In this document: positions 1-53,506 of the stretch, in pieces
Position numbering within the stretch: the stretch's first letter is position 1
How the letters are laid out: each line of letters starts with the position of its first letter
NCBI RefSeq assembly: GCF_001625215.2
Contig: NC_030386.2
Location: 34,971,296-35,035,295 of the forward strand
From: Daucus carota subsp. sativus
Taxonomy: Eukaryota > Streptophyta > Magnoliopsida > Apiales > Apiaceae
DNA: 64,000 bases
Direction: 5' to 3'
The notes under the pieces: model-generated
What the model saw: the letters and a program-made list of their open reading frames with translations, nothing else
Databases searched by the model: none
What the model was told of the DNA's origin: nothing
Translations under genes and position numbers: made by a program

Positions 1-132
1 GAGAGGAGGGGAGGGGGAGGGAGAAGAGAGAGAGAGAGAGAGGAGGGAGAGGAAGAGAGAGTGGGAGGACGAGAGAGAAAGGGAGAGAGGAAAGAGAGGG
101 AGGTAAGGGGGGAGAGGAGAAGGAGGAGAGCG

Positions 133-168
<36 letters not shown>

Positions 169-175
169 AGAGAGA

Positions 176-218
<43 letters not shown>

Positions 219-391
219 GCGAGAGAAGAGAGAGAGAGAGAGACGAGGAGAGAGAGCGAGAGGAGAGAGCGAGAGAGAGAGAGGAGAGAGAGAGAGAGAA
301 GAGATAGAGAGAGAGGCGAGGTGAGAGAGAGGAGAGAGAGAGAGAGAGAGAGAGGAGAGACGAGCGAGGAGGAGGGGAAGAGAGAGAGAGC

Positions 392-450
<59 letters not shown>

Positions 451-451
451 C

Positions 452-483
<32 letters not shown>

Positions 484-484
484 C

Positions 485-524
<40 letters not shown>

Positions 525-40475: not shown

Positions 40476-40793
40476 CTTCTTGCTTTGATATGTTTTTTCA
40501 TCGTGTTGCACGAGATCCCTCGTGGATATATTATATTATTTCAAAACTCTAATATTGATCTAGCTATAGCAAAACAAAGTTTAAAGATGTGAATATATTA
40601 TGCAAAGATAATAATATCGCATAATTTTACGTCGTCATAAGATCTAGAAGCTTCAGATACAACCATTGGTTCTACTCAACGCCAGCGATCGGATGTTTAT
40701 GCAATTATTTTGTGCTGTCCTTCCTTTTTGTTTATGCAATTTTTTGACTTTGATTACATATTTTAAGTGCTTTAATCAGAAAACTAAATTATA

Positions 40794-41097
40794 CTCCCTC
40801 CGTCCCCCTCAATTGTTTACATTGGAGGGGGACACGGAGACCAAGACAATGTATGAAAAATGAGTAAAGTTAGATGAAAAATGGGTAAAGTGGTGGGACC
40901 AACCAATATTTAATAATAGATTTGAGATAGTGGAGGAAAGTAGTGGGTGTAATAGTAGTTTTTATTGTTAAATATGAGATAGTAGAGGAAGATAGTGAGT
41001 GTAATGATGGAAAAAACTTACTATTTATAGTAACGTAAAGAAATGAGAGGGACATCCCAAAATAGTAACTGTAAACAAATGAGAGGGACAGAGGGAG
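40794..41097. mobile_element. Stowaway MITE (first of an adjacent pair)
   Basis: Ends CTCCCTCCGTCCCCC and GGGACAGAGGGAG, with TA on both sides (40792-40793 and 41098-41099). It is 304 bp and non-coding. Confidence 0.9.
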
Positions 41098-41118
41098 TAT
41101 CAAATATTATAAATACTA

Positions 41119-41377
41119 CTCCCTCCGTCTCTAAAAACGTTTCTCGTTTGAAATGTCGGTACTGTTCATAACATGAGACAAATTACTAATTTACGTCTAA
41201 TCTATAAAATAAAATATAGTCATGAGTGATCTTGTTGGATTCGTATTTATGAGTACTTTAATACAGTGAATTTTTTTTATTTAATACTAATACAAAACTA
41301 AAGATATTATTGATTAAAAGTGTGTGTTGGCAAACGTGAAAAGTACAAATGAGAAAAGCATTTAGGGACGGAGGGAG
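41119..41377. mobile_element. Stowaway MITE (second of an adjacent pair)
   Basis: Ends CTCCCTCCGTCTC and GGGACGGAGGGAG, with TA on both sides (41117-41118 and 41378-41379). It is 259 bp. The interior differs from the copy 22 bp away, so they are separate insertions. Confidence 0.9.
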
Positions 41378-41612
41378 TAGTATGTTTGCCCGCTCCGCAT
41401 GGGCGTTGAAAAATAATGTTTTTGAAAAAAATATGCTTGATTAAATTTGTATTTGATTATAGTTGAGGTTTTTTGATTTTCGATATAAATTATTTTAATT
41501 TTTTTCCTATTTCTTGTTCTCATCTAATTTATGTTCTCATCTAAAATAAATTCTAAAATGGAAAATATCTGATAATAGAGCTAATCTCATTAGTCCAATA
41601 TTTGGTACGATT

Positions 41613-42030
41613 AGAGGTGGCAATCATTTCATTTCGTATATTTTTGTATTTTGTGTACTCGAAGGTGAAACCCGTATCCGCACCCATTATTGGTTTTGTG
41701 TACCTAATTTGAAACCTGTATACGATCCGAAACGTTTTTGTATTTTTTTGTGTAGATTATATATAAATATATTAATATAATTTTAATCAAAAATAGTTTT
41801 AATATAAAATTTCCCTGTATAATTTTACACAATTATATATATAATATATTATAACATATATATAATAAAAATTATGTAGAAATATTTCGTTTACTTTCGT
41901 GTATTTCGTGTACCCGAAATGAAAACCCATATCCGACACGAAATCTATGGTCTACATTCATGCATCAAAAATGAGAACTTATATCCATTTTTTTCGTGTC
42001 GTTTCATGTTAACGTGTTACGTATCCCAAA
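41613..42030. repeat. Dispersed repeat copy 2 (first copy at 21523)
   Basis: Shares the opening GAGGTGGCAATC..TTTC, several TTCGTGTACC-type strings followed by GAAAACC, and a closing CATGTTAACGTGTTACGT with the 21523 segment. No ends typical of a known transposon class were seen. Confidence 0.65.
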
Positions 42031-42340
42031 TATATATAACTATAAATATAGTTTACAAAAATTAAATTATACAAAATATAGTATAGAAATTTAAATTGTC
42101 TTTTAAAAATAGGAAGGCAAGACCCAAATATTAGTTGTTTTTTATAATAAATAAAAAATATCAGTTGTTTTCAAAATTTGAAAGTAGCCACCAATATCTG
42201 TTGCTTTTTAATGTTAATTGACTTCAACTCCTACCTAAACAAAATTTAATTGACATTGAAGTACTACTCTCCCACTGTGAATTTATGATAAAAATAAATG
42301 CCCAGGATAAGAAAATCTATACGGGATCTTACATCACAAT

Positions 42341-42418
42341 TTGTAGCACATATGAAAGAGTATTAGAAAAATGCATTATTTGTAGCACATATGAAAGAGT
42401 ATTAGAAAAATGCATTAC
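42341..42418. repeat. Two-copy 39-bp tandem duplication
   Basis: The unit TTGTAGCACATATGAAAGAG, continuing TATTAGAAAAATGCATTA, occurs at 42341-42379 and again at 42380-42418 with essentially no change. This is probably a replication slip. Confidence 0.9.
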
Positions 42419-42545
42419 TTGCAAAACTCCGTTGACGTTCCCTCATCATTTTCGTATCGTAGTTTACTACACAGTGTTAAACACACAAACATAAGGACAG
42501 CTGGGGAAAAACTATTTAGGTATATCAAAATCATAAAACCAAGTT

Positions 42546-42707
42546 GGAAAATGCTACATGCACAGAACAGAATGAGTATGTGTCAACTTGTGATTGGAAT
42601 GGGCCCCCTGCACATGCATTAATAGCACTAATTAAAACTCCCCACCTAGATTGCCATGTCATTTTGTGTAAAATTATGTACCCAATTTTGTACATGTAGC
42701 ACTACTC
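42546..42707. mobile_element. 162-bp MITE with 9-bp target duplication
   Basis: The left end GGAAAATGCTACATGCACA and right end TGTACATGTAGCACTACTC are imperfect inverted repeats. AACCAAGTT flanks both sides exactly (42537-42545 and 42708-42716). A 9-bp duplication suggests a Mutator-like parent. Confidence 0.83.
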
Positions 42708-42800
42708 AACCAAGTTTACATACAAACATCAAAGAGCACTTAAATCCTTGCTAACATGAATCCTAAATCCTTTATAATGGATGATCTTAAATCCTTGCTA

Positions 42801-42959
42801 ACATAAAATTAAGATCATCCAGGTCATGACCCATTTGGAGAAGAGGCATGTCTACATCTTTATCAATTAAAATAGATGCTTGCCAAATCTCCCAGCAATC
42901 AAGTGTGCAATGTGAGAGGCTTGTTTCTCAAGAAAAGGAAGACCGCCGAGGAACAAAAG
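42801..42959 (-). pseudogene. Fragment of a DUF676 (ROG1-like) lipase/serine esterase gene
   Basis: After a T-rich tract and an acceptor-like TTTGGCAG at 42960, the minus strand encodes LLFLGGLPFLEKQASHIAHL then AGRFGKHLF. It stops, then in another frame resumes DKDVDMPLLQMGHDLDDLNF. This is the segment before and after HLFLTD in plant DUF676 alpha/beta hydrolases (compare At4g25770, from memory). The catalytic parts are absent. An exon-sized, frameshifted piece; not a working gene. Confidence 0.72.
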
Positions 42960-43081
42960 CTGCCAAAGCAAAAAAAAAAATAAAAATTATGATATAGAAC
43001 AGGCATTCTAAACAACGAACACTTTCAACACAATTAAAAAAAAAAGGCAATAAAAGTACTTGGTACCAAAATATAGGATTT

Positions 43082-44126
43082 TTTTTTTTTTTTTTTTTGA
43101 AAATGAGAATAAATCTCAACGAGAATCGGCAATTCACCGTGATAATTCTTTCATTCAAGAAAGCTTATTATCTAACCGTCGGACATGCAAGATGACCGGG
43201 GAAATTTAGACAATAAAACTTTAATGTCCGAAAAGAAAACCGGCCTTCTTCCAAAAATCCTGAAAATAAAACAAGAGAAACAAAAAGAATATAAGTCGAT
43301 ATATTTAACACATTACATCAAAATATTCCCACAATCATGATAACTCATGATTGAGACAATTAAACTCTTAATTAAGGCATAATAATAAAATATTAATATC
43401 CTTAATTAAGACACAATTAAAGCCCTCAAATAAGGCCCAATTAACGCCCTCAATAAAGAGGCATAATTAACGAGGAACAATTACCGCCCTCAATTAAGGC
43501 ACAATTAGCGCGCTTTCCTTTCTGAAACCGGGTCCCGTCCTGAAACCGCCGTCACCGCCACCATCGACCACCACCGCAGCACCGCTATGCTATCGATCAA
43601 ATTGCCTCGTCGTATGCGAAGCGAACAACGAAGCGTATCACATGTAACATGAAAAATTGCCAAAAACACCAAAAACCAAACAAAACACAGGGATTAAACA
43701 AAAAAACAAATACACACAAACAAACAAGATTAAAATCAACACCTTTCGCAATTTCACTCAAAATCATGAGAAAAAGAAAGAATATTATAAATAATTGTAA
43801 TAGAAGGGCATACCAGTTGAGCCATGAGGAACCTCATAGGATTTGAAAGTCGTAGCAGCATCATGTGACAAACCCATCTTTTTAATTGCCCCTCTCTCTT
43901 GCCTCTCTCTCGATCTTTTTCTCTTCACGCAGAACAAGATATAAGATGTTATATCAAGCTTTATTACTCAGGTGCCGGAGGATTGAATAAACAGAGACCA
44001 AACAGGGGTGAGTGAATGTGGATGAGTATGAGTTTGAGTGAGAGAGAGAGAATTTGAACGCAAGAAATTCTCAATTTGAAGTTCTGACCTAGGAGGAGTA
44101 GGAGGTTGAAGCGGCAGAGCAAAAGG
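43082..44126 (-). mobile_element. Retroposed transcript-like insertion with poly(A) and 16-17 bp target duplication
   Basis: ACCAAAATATAGGATT is repeated exactly at 43065-43080 and 44127-44142. The insert ends, on the minus strand, in a run of about 20 A (T-run at about 43079-43098). Its 5' end near 44126 is CT-rich. An ATG at 43877 opens MGLSHDAATTFKSYEVPHGS. A GTATGC donor (43813) and a pyrimidine-rich TTTTCAG acceptor (before 43259) would join it to a second exon ending at 43168, giving a 51-residue product. The intron carries degenerate repeats around CAATTAACGCCCTCAA (43370-43510). The parent gene is not recognised. It is either a partly unspliced retrocopy or a short non-autonomous retroposon. 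Confidence 0.8.
43168..43877 (-). CDS. Putative two-exon 51-residue ORF inside the retroposed insertion
   Basis: Exons 43877-43814 and 43259-43168 are in frame when joined (156 nt). They start MGLSHDAATTFKS and end GHLACPTVR. No known domain was recognised. Expression is unknown, and the ORF may be a remnant of the parent transcript. Confidence 0.3.
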
Positions 44127-44879
44127 ACCAAAATATAGGATTTGTAAGGGAAGAAACTGCATAACATGAAGCCATGAACATGTAATGGGATCAAAAATTC
44201 AGTAGGTCTGAGCAGGTTTGATTGTTTTCCACACCAGCCAAGCCAGCTATCAGTGACTTTTCTTTCACTTTTTGTAGCCACTTTTTAGTTCACTTCTTTT
44301 TATTTTCTTTTGGAGATTTCAAGTCCATAGTCCTTTTATAAAAGAGAGATCTTTGAAGCAAGAGATCAGTGATCTCCATCAAGTTGCATTTACTAATGCA
44401 ACAAACATATATTATCTGGTGATTGCCAGTGGAAGAGAATAAAAAACTTTTTAACAATGAATAAAGTAAAAAATAATTAAAAGAAAATAATTTCATAGTC
44501 AAAGTGCCTTCTAATTTTTCCTTTAACCCCCCTTCAAATATTTCCTTATAAGAGTTTTACTAATTGATAACAAAGCTTTCTTAACTATTTTTCCATTTTG
44601 CTATTACTCGTGCAAGAAATTCTGGAATTTGTTTCATCTGCAGCCTATGCGAAATGAAAAAATCTTATGAAATGAAAAAATCTTAAAAGAAAAATACTTA
44701 ACTTGAGCCTATGCTAAGGGCCTATGCGAAAACATGAATAAGTTGAAGTATATCACCACTTTATATTCAGGAACCACATTCCTCATTTTTTAAAGACTGT
44801 ATATGCTTGTCTAAGGCCTGTTGCAGATTTTAATTATGAGCTGATAATACTAAAACTTGAGAAGACATATACATACCTG

Positions 44880-45250
44880 CGGAACCCCAACTACCATGAA
44901 ATAAAAGCCCTTAACCGGATGATCAGCTAGCGACATTTGTTCCACTGACCCGATCATATTTGACATAGTCATGATCTAATGTTCAGCGTGCTATGAATGT
45001 ACTCAGCCGTGGCCTGATTCACAAAATTCAGCATTGTTGAAACAATGAAAATGCTAGATCATTTTTTGTAATATAATTAATGGTGTAGATTCAGAAGCCT
45101 TTATTGATACGATTAATACTCTTTAGTGTGCATACCTCAGGACCTCTATATCTCCTCATTGTTTCTAATAATCTGCCAGTGAGAAAGATAGCTGCAGATT
45201 CTCTCTTTTTTTGATGATTTCCTGTGCCCTGTACACAAACTGAATCTGGT
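44880..45250 (-). pseudogene. Exon-like fragments of unrecognised origin
   Basis: Two open, splice-bounded segments on the minus strand. One ends GTATGC after a frame reading KKRESAAIFLTGRLLETMRR and YRGPE (about 45230-45137). The other ends GTATGT after SVEQMSLADHPVKGFYFMVV and GVPQ (about 44960-44879). I do not recognise the parent gene or genes. Their density and strand match the neighbouring gene fragments. Confidence 0.4.
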
Positions 45251-45365
45251 GAGAACATTCTTTTCAATTTAATTCTGGAACTGAGACATTTAAGAAACTG
45301 AACTGGTTTCCCCATTGCTTCCCGACTGCGGAAGCATCAGCCATTTCAAAATTGGTGGAACTTAC

Positions 45366-45594
45366 TTAGCCTGTTCAGCCTCTTTCTCCTCCAACCATTT
45401 CTTAACCTTCGTGGAATCAAGTAATACCTTAAAGGAAAATTTTGTGCTTGGTTAATCAGTGTTTGATACATATATAACCAAAAAACTATTTCAGCATGCC
45501 AAATAAAGTAAGCTATAAATTGAAGGTAACTAAACACCTCGTCAATTCTTTGTTTTGGAAGCCAAGATTTATTTGTTTCCGATCCTTGTACTAT
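45366..45594 (-). pseudogene. Two-exon fragment of an HSP70-17-like (Hsp110/Lhs1-type) chaperone gene
   Basis: The exon at 45594-45538 encodes IVQGSETNKSWLPKQRIDE. The exon at 45427-45366 encodes VLLDSTKVKKWLEEKEAEQA. Both have AG acceptors and GT donors. Joined, they match the C-terminal stretch ETNKTWLPKEKIDEV..W..EQ of the ER chaperone HSP70-17 (At4g16660, from memory). The ATPase and peptide-binding domains and the rest of the C-terminus are missing on both sides. This is a genomic, intron-bearing capture, not a retrocopy. Confidence 0.72.
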
Positions 45595-45765
45595 CTGCAG
45601 ATACACAGAAAGAAAGTTTTAGAACCACTACTGCAGAATTAACGTGCAAAAAATATACAGATGAAATCTATCAACTCAAACGAATTCTTAGAAAAATCAA
45701 AGCAAGCTCTCTTTTTAAAAAATCATATAGAGGAATCTGGGTGGTTATCAACACAGAGCTGCAGA

Positions 45766-46641
45766 ACTGTTAGGAATCTCCAATACCTACTGAGTAGAGA
45801 CATGGGCTTGGTTGTTGCGGTTCCAGGTTTTGAGCTGGTGCAGAACATGGGGCTGGGAGAGGTAATAGACGATGCCCCGCCGCCACGCCCTTTTAAACGT
45901 AAGAGGGTAGATACATGCGATGAATGTGGCCGCAATGTGGTCAGGCATGTCCCTACTCGTGCAATCTCTCGAGATACTGGGGGATCCTCTTCAGCTCTAA
46001 TCAATTCCTTTGCTCGCCAAAACTTCAAGGGAAAGACTACTGGCTATGAAACCTTTGCCTTCTATGATGATGGGGCACTCTCGCGTCGCGCAATTGACAT
46101 TCTGGACTCTGGAGCACTTATGAAATTTGCTCCATTCTTTGCTGACGTAGAGCTGAATCTGGAAGCCCATGTTAAAAACGGCTTCTTCGTTAAGGACATT
46201 CTGCACTATGCTTGCCTAGATACCCTTGGTCTTGTGGAATTCATGCTGGTAGATTCATACATTCAGGACTTCAATGCGGTGCCTGATGACTCTGTGCTCA
46301 TGCCGTTTGATCAGGTCGGCATAAACATGGGTTTAGATGATGCTGTGGTTCCGGCGTTGGATGAGGATGGGGTGACCCATGAAGCTTCTGCAGGGATTTA
46401 CTTGGCTGGTCCCTCAACTACTGGACTCTGAGTCCTTGTCTCTGGCTTCTCTTTGTAGTTTTAGTTTCTTTCCTGTACTTTATTTTCGGCCTGTAGGTTC
46501 TTTTGGTGGTATTTCTCGGGGTCTCTTACTCCTCCTCTGCTTGTTTAGTTTGATGGCTTAATGCCTTTTTGTGCTGATATCTTTTGATATCTCTTTGTAA
46601 GACATTCCGAGAAATTATTATAATTTGGCTTATCAAAAAAA
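45766..46641 (+). mobile_element. 5'-truncated LINE-like retroposon with 16-bp target duplication
   Basis: AACACAGAGCTGCAGA is repeated exactly at 45750-45765 and 46642-46657. The insert is 876 bp and ends TTTGGCTTATC plus an A run, the usual 3' end of plant L1-type LINEs. Its reading frame is already open at the first inserted base, which fits a 5' truncation inside a longer ORF. The 3' untranslated part (46432-46641) is T-rich. Perfect duplications point to a recent insertion. Confidence 0.87.
45802..46431 (+). CDS. Uncharacterised 209-codon ORF in the LINE-like insertion
   Basis: Open from the insertion boundary, with the first internal ATG at 45802 (MGLVVAVPGFELVQNMGLGE). A basic patch PPPRPFKRKRVDTCDECGRN contains a CxxC pair. 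A mixed acidic/hydrophobic segment follows (YETFAFYDDGALSRRAIDIL; HYACLDTLGLVEFMLVDSYI), and it ends GPSTTGL. No reverse transcriptase, endonuclease, RNase H or CCHC knuckle can be seen. It may be the C-terminal part of a LINE ORF1-like or other element protein, or a captured host sequence. I do not know its function. The frame is intact, in contrast to the fragments around it. Confidence 0.5.
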   Translation: MGLVVAVPGFELVQNMGLGEVIDDAPPPRPFKRKRVDTCDECGRNVVRHVPTRAISRDTGGSSSALINSFARQNFKGKTTGYETFAFYDDGALSRRAIDILDSGALMKFAPFFADVELNLEAHVKNGFFVKDILHYACLDTLGLVEFMLVDSYIQDFNAVPDDSVLMPFDQVGINMGLDDAVVPALDEDGVTHEASAGIYLAGPSTTGL

Positions 46642-47784
46642 AACACAGAGCTGCAGAGAGCAGACCCAACTCATGTGGCCAACTCTTCAAATAGCATGTA
46701 CCAACGCTTTTATAAAATTGGTGGATCACTTCCAAAAGTTTTGTCATGTTTCTAATTTACTACTGATTAGAAGATTTCTGATGTCCTTGACAATCATTAT
46801 AAGAGTAAAAATAGTGAATGATACTAATATGAAAGAATAGTTTTATAGATCAATGTACAGTGTATTTAAACTTCTCATCACGACAATGTATGCTGGAAAT
46901 TAAATCGTTAATTAAGCATTTCTCGAGTATCCTGCATAAGAAAAATTGTAAACATATATTTTGTTAGCAGAGCAGAACCACCAATTAAAAATATAATACA
47001 TTTGGGCAGAGATGTACACTGATGTATAAATGCATCAATAGCTTGTCTTAAAATAATTCAATGAATTAACAATTTCTTCTAAAAAACCGCCATACATTAT
47101 GTTTATAAATTAGGTAATAAATAGGCATCCAGCGCATCAAAGATGTGGCATATGATACAGTATAGTTCATTTCTTAAACGAATTGCAAAACATTACAACA
47201 GGAAGTGCAGGGCATTTCTAAACCGAAGAATTAATACAATGAATGGAGTCATTTGGATTAGACTAATTAAAGAGCCGCAAAGAACTAAACAGGGAAGAAG
47301 TTTTACCCGCCACAATTTCAATTAATTTTGATAGTTTGACATGTATTGGATGATTCCCGAGAAACTGCAAATTAAGGGAGACTTTGATGCTCACGACATT
47401 AGTTGAGAAGAAAGACAAAGCAATAACAACAGGAGAACCCAGGAGCAACGACTTATTAGGCCTCCTCTTGCAATCCAGTAAACAAATAGATCTGCAAAAT
47501 ATGCGAGGGGCACAATTAGTAACCAAATGACAATAGAAGAGATCATTGAAGAATGCAAGTTGTTCTACCTTGCTGGTATAATAGGTTGAGGCTTCCAAAT
47601 TGCTGAAAGACAATTTCATTATTTCTGTGAAGAGATAAGAATAGTGCATGCACATTCCTAATGAAGCTCCTAAAATAATAGAAGAACATCAACCTCCACC
47701 AAATGCTATATACCAAAACAATTTTCACTTGCACAGATCCACTTTACATGAATTATTTGAACCTTAAAATACGAAGTGCACGAA

Positions 47785-47998
47785 CTTAACAATGCAGTGA
47801 GCAGTACGTGATGTGCATAGTATTGCAGCAAGGCCAAGATCACTTGAATTCCCTTTGATTACCATTTACAAAAATAGTGTCACACTTGAGATCTCTATGT
47901 ATAATTGGAGGATTATGGCTATAGAGGTAAAGAAGGTCTTCCAACATCTGCCGACAATGTTTTACTTCTCTGATGATCACTTTCTTGTGTTTCTGCCT
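47785..47998 (-). pseudogene. Fragment of a WNK kinase gene
   Basis: The minus strand reads [40 protein letters not shown] and [11 protein letters not shown], then hits a stop. It resumes in another frame as DLGLAAILCTSRTAHCIV. This is the catalytic-loop region of plant WNK kinases (HRDLKCDN..GDLGLA). The Asn after HRDLKCD is changed to Thr, and about five bases are missing before the DLG motif. The rest of the kinase is absent. Certain as WNK-derived; not functional. Confidence 0.85.
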
Positions 47999-48419
47999 AT
48001 ATCTATTAATACAATAGCATAGAATATATAGTCATTAAAAACTGGAAAATAAAGTTTCATGAAGAAAAGTCCAAATAAATAAATGCTTACAGAGACCGGG
48101 AACATCACTTACTGCATTTATTTACTCTCCTTTTTAAAAATAAATGCTTACAAAATTGCATTTAGTATTTTTAAAATCACTTATTCCCTCCATTCTCCAT
48201 TTATTATTTACTCTCTTATTTCACAACTTGACACGTATCTTAAAACGTGAGATCTATTAATATTTATAATCTCAAATAAAAAACTCGTCGACTTTATGTG
48301 CATCTAATTCATGCTGGCATGATGAGGACTCCTAAACATAATAACACCGTATATCTCTGCTAATTGCAAATTGCAATAAGCAAACAGAACATAATGTTAA
48401 TGCTTTCAAATATTTGCAG

Positions 48420-48491
48420 GCTGATCTGCTAAAAGTGGACCGTAAAAGGACACCATGGCTACTTGTACTGTTCCATGTTCCATGGTATAAC
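48420..48491 (+). pseudogene. Fragment of a purple acid phosphatase gene
   Basis: After an AG acceptor at 48418-48419, the plus strand encodes ADLLKVDRKRTPWLLVLFHV then PWYN. This is the conserved block of plant purple acid phosphatases that holds a metal-binding His in HVPWYN. The frame then diverges and stops. It lies on the opposite strand to the WNK, HSP70 and DUF676 fragments. Confidence 0.75.
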
Positions 48492-48624
48492 TTTACACAA
48501 TATCTGTTGGAAAATGGGGTATAACTTTATTGAGAAGACATGGCAATTTTTTTTTTCATATATTGTTGATTGAAAACAAAAATTCAGAAATTTCATATGT
48601 GATAAAAAAGAAAATAGTTAATAA

Positions 48625-48810
48625 TATACCTTAACATCATCAGCCAGAGGGACTCTAATTGATATTGCTGAAAGTTTTCGCAACACCCTGCAACAGCTTC
48701 AGAATTTTTACCCTCAATCTTGCGAGCGGATTATTTAATACACTTGCTCACTTGCTTCATCCTCTCCATTTCAACTTGCTTCTCTAAGATGGAGTTCCTC
48801 ATCATTTCTA
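48625..48810 (-). pseudogene. Further exon-like fragments, parent unknown
   Basis: The minus strand reads EMMRNSILEKQVEMERMKQV (after an acceptor-like TTCTGTAG near 48811). Another open stretch, VLRKLSAISIRVPLADDVK, ends at a GTATAT donor near 48630. Neither is recognised. They are listed because they share the look of the neighbouring captured exons. Confidence 0.35.
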
Positions 48811-49984
48811 CAGAAACATTGTAAAAAAAAATCATGTTACATAATGCAAATAAAAACGTCAGGGCCACACAAAAGTCTCTATAGTCTATTCTCGATCAAA
48901 TGTGGGAATAAATAATAAAGTAATAGTCTTTCTACAATCAAGTATAAAGATTTATAAAGTAATGCCTATACATAGTACATTAATGGGATTATGAACAATT
49001 TAATAATTTAATTCAAGAACAATGAAAATCTCTAAGAACTATAATCAAATAGTTGGTGTGCAGCTGTATATATGTCAAACTGGATTCTACATTGCACTAC
49101 AAAATACCAATTTATAAATAAAATGGACGCACATCAGGAACAAATCCTCTCAAAAAGTAAATACAACTCCAATCACATAGTTGTATTAAAACAAAGCAAA
49201 ATCTATAAAAACAAAGTCTATGATTTAGATACCTTTTTGCATCATAATGAAATCTTAAATCCAAATTATCATACTTGATGTCACAAACAATAAATCTCAA
49301 ACAACCTGCAAAAGAAATCAAATAGTAATTATACATCGACAATTGAAATAAATATTGTCAAATGATGAAAATATATGAATAATAATTATAGCATATGATT
49401 TACATACACCAAAAATAAAAATTTACATTAAAACATATCCTTTTCCAGCCTCTTGCACACATATAATGTAAACAGTCAAATTACAATGCACCACTCCAAA
49501 AAGTATTACCAACAATAAAAGTTATCATTTTATACTTTTATCTCTCAAATTTTTCGTAATTATCTAACGCCTCAAATAGATTTTCATAAAAATCCTAAAT
49601 AATGCAAGTCAAACCAATAAGCAGACATGTTAACAAAAAACAAATGAAAAATCATATATAATACATAAACATCGTGTATTAAACTCATGGAGAGTGCAAA
49701 AATTACCTTTTTAAGCCTCTTGCATATATATGATGTAATTGTGAACTCGCAAAACAGCAAAACTGTAAAAAAAAAAAAAATTTAAGTTAGGACTTCTATC
49801 AAACAGTTGCAAAGCAAACCAATAAAACATGATTATACAAAGTAATCATGTCTATAAAATCACAAAAAAATCATATCCACAACAAAGTCTGATCAAAGAT
49901 ATGACCGGATTAAATAAAAGACAATCAAAGAGAAACTATTTTACATCTTACAATTTCAAAGAAAGCATACGGAGGAAGAAGCTG

Positions 49985-50145
49985 TAATGAGATGTGAAAT
50001 CAAATGTGGTAGGTGATAGAAGATACCTCTTCCATTAGAAACCAAGACTCGGAGAAGAAGATGAAGAAAAGCTGTGAAGAATCGTGAAAAGGGCGAGATG
50101 GCGGAAGGAATCGAAGCTCACGCGGGAGAGCATAATCTTTTGAAA
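49985..50145 (-). other. Leader/first-exon-like segment at the right end of the fragment cluster
   Basis: The minus strand has an ATG near 50131 opening MLSRVSFDSFRHLALFTILH, then a Ser-rich run, 32 codons in all. A second ATG (ATGGAAGAG) lies directly before a GTATCT donor near 50027. It could be a transit-peptide-like first exon or an untranslated leader from a captured gene. No continuation was found. Confidence 0.3.
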
Positions 50146-50489
50146 TTTGAAAACCTAATTGTACTGCGATGTACTGCTGAGCCGAGAAGAGGTGGATAAT
50201 GGAGAGAATATGTGGCTGAGCAGTAAGACACGTGTGTATACCGTATATTCAAGCCGTATAGAGTGGCAATACACTGAAGATACACAAAAAATAGAGGGAC
50301 AAAGTAGACAATTTGTACCCAAATATGTAGTAGGCTTTATAATTTAAATAGATACGTCAAACATCTATGACAGCTAGAGGTGATGAAGTAGGCATCAAAA
50401 AACAAAAAATATACTGGTACGGAAAATTACAAACCCTTTTTATTCTACTAACATTAAACTTCATTTATTACTTTCTGCAGCTCCATAGG

Positions 50490-52452: not shown

Positions 52453-53506
52453 GTACACCTTTAAAAGCATGGCTAATGGTAGTGCTAAAATACGTGTAGT
52501 TATTGCTATATTTTAGCATCAAAAAACGACTTGACACTTTAAAGTAGCACTTCTACTTCAATGGGTAGATTTAAAATATCGGTCTTTCTAATGTGTGCCC
52601 AAGGGCACACATTACCAAGGCACACATTAAACACTAAATTTTATAAAAATGACTTGTTTTGATTGGTGGAATTGATGTGAATGCAGGGAGGCCATTATCA
52701 TTTATTGTTCATCCACCAATCAAAATGAGTTATTTTTATTGGAGTTAGAGACTATTGTGTGCCCTTGGGCACATCATAGAAAATCCCTTAAAATATCACT
52801 AAACTATCTAAATATAGCTATATTTCATTCACCAAATCTTTAAATGCTCTACTTTATTTGTCAACATTACTTTAAATTAAATATTAATTTTCCTACTTGC
52901 ATGCTTATGAGGCAATTATAACGACGTCTCTACTTGGTTTTATATTTAACACCAAGTATAGAATTTCGCTATTTTACATCCACGTTTAGCAACCCATTGG
53001 AGCGAGATTTTTTGCTTGGGTGCTATATTATATATGTCATTCACTAGCAAACCAAACTTTCAGAGAACACTTTTCTTTGGCTTGTGGAAATACTTGTTCT
53101 CTATGCGCAAGCACCTGTAATATTACATGATATATGCTTGCATTTAGATAATCCAACCAGGACAACTATTAGAGTAAGTCAAATAAAGGTGCTAAAGGTG
53201 ATGCTATATCTATAATATAGCACTCAAGCAATATACCAACTAAATATAAAATCAAGTATAGACGTTGCTATAATTGCCACATGAGAATGTAAGAGGGAAA
53301 ATTAATATCTAATTTAAAATAATGTTGACAAATAAAATAGAGCATTTAAAGATCTGATGAATGAAATATAGCTATATTTAAATCGTTGCTATTTTAAATC
53401 TACCTATTGGAGTAAAAGTTCTATTTTAATATCACAAGTCACTTTTTAGTGCTAAAATATAACATAACTATACATATTTTAGCATCACCGTTGAGCAAGG
53501 TGTACT
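52453..53506. mobile_element. About 1.05-kb foldback element with a nested MITE
   Basis: The sequence from AGTACACCTT (52453) inward is mirrored by AAGGTGTACT ending at 53506. Matching inner strings include TGCTAAAATA/TATTTTAGCA, AAATATAGCTATATTTCATTCA and GTCAACATTA. The arms are imperfect, and the left arm is split by another element at 52581-52787. No convincing target duplication was found, so class and exact ends are uncertain. Confidence 0.72.
52581..52787. mobile_element. 207-bp Mutator-like MITE nested in the foldback
   Basis: Ends GGTCTTTCTAATGTGTGCCC and GGGCACATCATAGAAAATCCC are inverted repeats, each adjoining an internal CCAAGGGCACA/TGTGCCCTTGG palindrome. TTAAAATATC is repeated exactly at 52571-52580 and 52788-52797. 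The 9-10 bp duplication fits Mutator-like MITEs. Confidence 0.86.

Follow-up and report, generated by a model that had tools for sequence, protein, structure and literature searches.

A cluster of gene fragments lies between two UGT genes in a 64,000 nt stretch of the genome of carrot, Daucus carota subsp. sativus (contig C6, positions 34971296-35035295), which is referred to here, at its full length, as the window. We interpret this cluster, with a probability of roughly 0.96, as part of a single minus-strand non-autonomous Helitron, belonging to a lineage that copied intron-bearing DNA of at least six genes and was probably mobilized in trans by the RepHel protein of full-length relatives. 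The whole element spans 41116-50352 of the window (minus strand), with a host A before its TC and a host T after its CTAG, and its ends match exactly or nearly in copies on C1, C3 and C5. An earlier note, made from the sequence alone, had placed a block at 42801-50145 and named Helitrons as one of two mechanisms that might have assembled it. The block is a real repeated unit, and the TC and CTAG ends and the repeated copies bear out the Helitron. However, the true unit is longer at both ends, and the suggestion of an undescribed capturing element is not supported. The present length is 9237 bp, or about 6.85 kb once the four later inserts are subtracted together with a single copy of each target duplication.

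Termini and dispersed copies

Neither a TC nor a CTRR end had been found previously, but both are present. The TC, at 50352, begins a 5′ terminus, TCTATTTAAATTATAAAGCC (50333-50352, minus strand), that is preceded by a host A. A degenerate pattern that includes this A has 31 matches in the genome searched (441,086,747 bases, 11 contigs) and the reversed control has none. The 3′ terminal region (41380-41404, minus strand; motif GCGGGCAAACATACTAGT) consists of an imperfect hairpin, AAACATA and a CTAG of which only the G (41380) is left on this side of a miniature inverted-repeat transposable element (MITE). The motif has 40 exact matches genome-wide, and none for the reversed control. The remaining three bases of the CTAG, read at the MITE junction, lie beyond it at 41116-41118 (minus strand). 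The MITE itself (41119-41377) is of the Stowaway type, with ends CTCCCTCCGTC and a TA target duplication (41117-41118 and 41378-41379), and the CTAG had been missed because it is split by this insertion. At the same position, the copies on C1, C3 and C5 read unbroken ACTAGTATG. The 3′ ends of these copies are the hairpin, AAACATACTAG and then T, and their 5′ ends are A followed by TCTATTTAAATTATAAAG. Another Stowaway-like pair, with CTCCCTCC-type ends, adjoins the 3′ end of the Helitron at 40785-41110.

A search for repeated copies of the block, as the earlier note had advised, recovered the whole block on C1 and C3 and thereby fixed the ends. A 1.2 kb query from the region matched C1 at 97 % and C3 at 93 % over its first 966 bases, the match stopping at the start of an insert at 45766-46641 (see below). 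Both copies are 87-97 % identical to the window across most of 41.4-49.0 kb and 73-78 % identical near the 5′ end. Because the block recurs at this level on C1 and C3, the co-occurrence of the four fragments named in the earlier note is not due to chance.

Nine elements were cut end to end, namely the one in the window, C1:19651760-19671211, C3:60219153-60224388, C5:4043543-4049180, C1:48549670-48553220, C1:41615986-41620642, C6:33798036-33803032, C4:24564083-24569851 and C2:44314082-44319846. All nine fit the form A/TC...CTAG/T, the TC with its preceding host A being read in C1:19651760-19671211 via a duplicated TCTATT, and the CTAG with its following host T being counted in the window despite the MITE. 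No target-site duplication was seen in the flanks of the Helitron copies, and flanks of up to 400 bases per side match in only 3 of 36 pairs, each time over 14-20, mostly A/T-rich, bases. Among the 31 matches to the 5′ terminus, 18 have a correctly oriented 3′ motif no more than 25 kb away (the window, in which the motif is split, was added by hand).

Substitution differences amount to 2.5 % between the window and C1 copies and 4.3 % between the window and C3 copies. The C4 and C2 elements differ by 0.31 % (18 mismatches over 5.77 kb). C1:41615986-41620642 and C1:48549670-48553220, which carry the WS/DGAT and HSP fragments at two unlinked sites, show no mismatch along about 3.55 kb; they differ in 5-6 gap columns and by a 1.1 kb internal indel that we read as a recent gain or loss. 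Taking 6.5e-9 substitutions per site per year, the window-C1 and window-C3 splits would be about 2-3 million years old and the C4-C2 and C1-C1 pairs far younger. Related pairs at 0-0.3 % difference with unrelated flanks point to recent movement, and we tentatively raise the possibility that this gene-shuffling group is still active in carrot, or was until very recently.

Captured fragments and their source genes

From the 5′ end of the Helitron, the cargo consists of pieces of genes for a purple acid phosphatase (antisense), a WNK kinase, a cytochrome P450 (antisense), an HSP70-17-type chaperone, a WS/DGAT and a DUF676 protein. The phosphatase, WNK, HSP70-17-type and DUF676 pieces had already been named in the earlier note and are confirmed by Pfam or PDB matches together with source-gene alignments, as is their arrangement close together (about 5.7 kb), on both strands and with broken reading frames. 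Of the further exon-like pieces that the note had left unnamed, two are now assigned to WS/DGAT and P450, but 43082-44126 and 45766-46641 are later insertions. Parent genes, which the note had proposed to locate, were traced with their identities for five of the six fragments. They lie at separate loci on C5, C9, C3 (11.2 Mb), C3 (13.9 Mb) and C8, and the fragments are thus not neighbours in their source genome, as they would be after a simple segmental duplication. The captured DNA contains introns, and the alignments cross exon and intron, which bears out the proposal that a transposon had captured genomic segments from unrelated genes. Pfam names the source or related genes for WNK, WS/DGAT, DUF676, P450 and HSP70, and the phosphatase gene was identified via its own exon sequence and the PDB match of the fragment.

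The phosphatase exon and upstream intron (48263-48490, plus strand) align with the gene at C3:13.89 Mb, the exon at 95 % over 98 columns (98 bp) and the intron at 87 % over 130 columns. The fragment has a PDB match at 5.4e-6, and the Pfam Metallophos match is only 0.14. The WNK exon and flanking intron (47761-48091, minus strand) are 87 % identical over 339 columns to the gene at C9:40.74 Mb. The top PDB matches of this piece are WNK1 chains (3.9e-10), while alone it falls under the Pfam kinase cut-off (22.7 versus 31.7 bits); it has lost a splice donor GT and has 3 bp and 5 bp deletions. The P450 exon (47386-47576, plus strand) is 90 % identical over 192 columns to the gene at C8:9.15 Mb. Alone it has no family match in Pfam or PDB, and it is identified because its source gene is Pfam p450 (6.3e-12).

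The HSP70-17-type exons (45371-45597, minus strand) comprise two exon-sized pieces that match the gene at C3:11.20 Mb at 84 % over 81 bp and 74 % over 77 bp. The upstream exon of this gene is Pfam HSP70 (1.7e-40), PDB searches with two of its exons returned no relative, and the subtype is one that we take to be 17. The WS/DGAT exons and introns (44835-45348, minus strand) recur in sister Helitrons and are 71 % identical to a WS/DGAT gene on C1. The piece at 44853-44975 matches Pfam WS_DGAT_C above the cut-off (2.1e-8), and a PDB search with the joined pieces gave nothing useful (one lysozyme match, E 0.59). The DUF676 segment consists of an exon with flanking intron (42789-43081, minus strand; 82 % over 302 columns) and an intronic remainder (44127-44585, minus strand; 77 % over 393 and 76 % over 136 columns). 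Its source gene, at C5:30.70 Mb, thus aligns at 76-82 % with the intron included, and matches Pfam above the cut-off (1.1e-6), whereas the broken piece is below it (E 0.0092; 15.9 versus 20.3 bits).

Elsewhere in the genome, a 3′ motif follows downstream within 12 kb at 5 of 17 places with a WNK match (window excluded) and at 12 of 21 with a WS/DGAT-HSP match. The remaining 12 and 9 places include source genes, paralogues and some that are unexplained.

Candidate helper and later insertions

An element of about 15 kb, C9:2322736-2337683, has both ends in common with the window Helitron and encodes Rep and a Pif1-like helicase. Its first 21 nt are 100 % the same, its 3′ end is CATGCGAAGCGGGCAAACATCCTAG followed by T, at 2337683, and it has Pfam matches to Helitron_like_N (Rep piece, 3.8e-7), PIF1 (3.4e-87) and DUF223 (piece, 2.6e-5). 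The stretches read cover all but about 3.4 kb of it, and it may be intact. Judging from its sequence, this element is the likely helper for the window Helitron family. Genome-wide, PF14214 (Rep) gave 168 matches, of which the 150 listed are all above the cut-off (344 candidates, 150 scored). Among those 150, a Rep lies within 15 kb and on the same strand at 2 of the 31 5′ ends, against 0.08 expected. A second helper may be represented by the Rep at C3:44696095, which precedes a 3′ motif by 15.6 kb, and another Rep is near the 5′ end at C3:37546594.

Other insertions distinguish the window element from the C1 and C3 copies. Among the three, only that in the window has a 162 bp insert (42546-42707), flanked by a 9 bp target duplication, AACCAAGTT, and by the size of the duplication this would be a Mutator-like MITE. 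Two insertions of the retrocopy type are also absent from C1 and C3, which have a single copy of each duplication at these sites. One (43082-44126, minus strand) has a 17 bp target duplication, ACCAAAATATAGGATTT, and a poly(T) on the plus strand that is a poly(A) of about 17-20 A on the minus strand; it seems to retain an intron-like stretch. The other (45766-46641, plus strand) has a short A tail, a 16 bp target duplication, AACACAGAGCTGCAGA, and an open reading frame of 256 codons (45661-46431 from the first ATG) that has no match in Pfam. A 97 % relative is found at C4:34163239-34164086, four further places have weaker ones, and the matches total nine including the window. Both insertions came after capture and are not captured pieces.

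Also within the Helitron, a 39 bp unit is present in two perfect tandem copies at 42339-42416. Outside it, MITE-like nested inverted repeats (147 nt, 88 %; 75 nt, 81 %) lie downstream of the second UGT gene at 52504-53464, and a long GA-rich simple repeat occupies the start of the window (17-524).

Alternative explanations and significance

In earlier rounds of transposition, the Helitron lineage would have copied intron-bearing genomic stretches of six or more genes from separate loci, presumably stepwise and by rolling-circle chemistry. Mobilization would have been in trans, by the RepHel protein of same-ended full-length relatives such as C9:2322736-2337683. The window copy would then have inserted on the minus strand between the two UGT genes, and afterwards gained the two retro-insertions and the 162 bp insert. 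The MITE that splits its CTAG should block further normal transposition of this copy. In the read-through model, the 3′ terminator is passed over and the Helitron takes up adjacent DNA, as outlined in an excerpt of PMC4778049; at a guess, the weak hairpin of the window family would suit frequent read-through.

Several observations weigh against this history. Helitrons carry a GC-rich hairpin some 10 nt ahead of the 3′ end. That of the window branch is no better than shuffled sequences (z -0.51, 60 of 200 shuffles as good), nor, at z -0.19 with 82 of 200, is that of the C5 copy, and a strong one is found in a sister branch only (z -3.57, 1 of 200). No exact 3′ motif lies within 25 kb of 13 of the 31 5′ matches, and the A-T target is read from occupied copies. 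The immediate WS/DGAT source was not found genome-wide, the best gene-like matches outside the family being only 69-76 % identical. In the C9 element, the first 600 bases have no further similarity to the window, and the search for its 3′ end tolerated two mismatches in a 12-mer, only one of the four matches having a GC-rich stem and CTAG.

Short fragments from many loci, on both strands, might also be left by segmental duplication, or by double-strand break repair as filler DNA or a patchwork, with Helitron ends nearby by chance. We consider this very improbable, as the whole block recurs with the same ends at unlinked places with unrelated flanks, and one pair has no mismatch over 3.55 kb, another 18 over 5.77 kb. 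The chance that the block is a Pack-type terminal inverted repeat (TIR) element (MULE or CACTA), or some undescribed capturing element, is close to negligible. No ends had been seen at first reading, and the block contains and adjoins several TIR MITEs, but its ends are not joined by a long inverted repeat (none was found at the search settings used). The copies start with TC after an A and finish with CTAG before a T, and no target duplication was seen. Whole-block copies with these ends led us to reject the TIR element, segmental duplication and filler DNA.

Less easily set aside, though still unlikely, is that the fragments were gathered elsewhere first, for example in a pseudogene array, and entered the Helitron through one or two large captures. 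The window, C1 and C3 copies agree in the order of the WNK, P450, phosphatase, HSP and WS/DGAT pieces. However, sister elements have subsets, those on C5, C1 (41.6 and 48.5 Mb), C6, C4 and C2 aligning in the WS/DGAT or HSP parts and not the rest. Divergence from the source genes is 5 % for the phosphatase exon and reaches 26 % for an HSP exon, a spread that captures of different age would produce, although differing exon and intron constraint may account for part of it.

A non-autonomous Helitron with stepwise capture has precedents. According to the excerpted account of maize (Dong et al. 2011, PMC3288121), capture over several rounds produces multi-gene cargo. There, as here, many unrelated gene fragments from different chromosomes lie in one non-autonomous element, sisters share subsets, and autonomous relatives have Rep, helicase and RPA-type domains. 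The host and the end sequences differ, and five fragment sources are named here; the six carrot fragments fall inside the range of 0-12 given for maize helAs. In Brassica napus, the portion of PMC11986588 on capture gives at least two fragments for 35.25 % of gene-capturing elements and captured stretches of 92-1270 bp (mean 230 bp); captured exons are mostly UTRs there, whereas the six in the carrot element are coding. Helraiser, bat Helibat1, likewise has TC...CTAG ends, an AT target, a 3′ hairpin and a read-through capture model in the excerpt of PMC4778049, but it is an experimental animal system, and the window hairpin is weak by comparison.

In carrot, a Helitron disrupts DCAR_730022, a carotenoid candidate gene at Y2, probably in the same assembly, and the relevant extract (PMC10581907) mentions a curated carrot Helitron set. 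Open-access literature on Helitron capture in carrot, as represented by such extracts, gave no account of the present family, which may be in that set. The family is a well-documented addition to an already known kind of element. We note that annotation may mistake gene-fragment blocks of such Helitrons for genes, and that a MITE can mask a Helitron end. What was a heap of gene scraps can now be named as an element whose ends, most source genes and candidate helper are identified, and insertion polymorphism, activity and chimeric transcripts become testable. If activity has been recent and the C9 helper is complete, novel combinations of exons may be segregating in carrots and may be transcribed.

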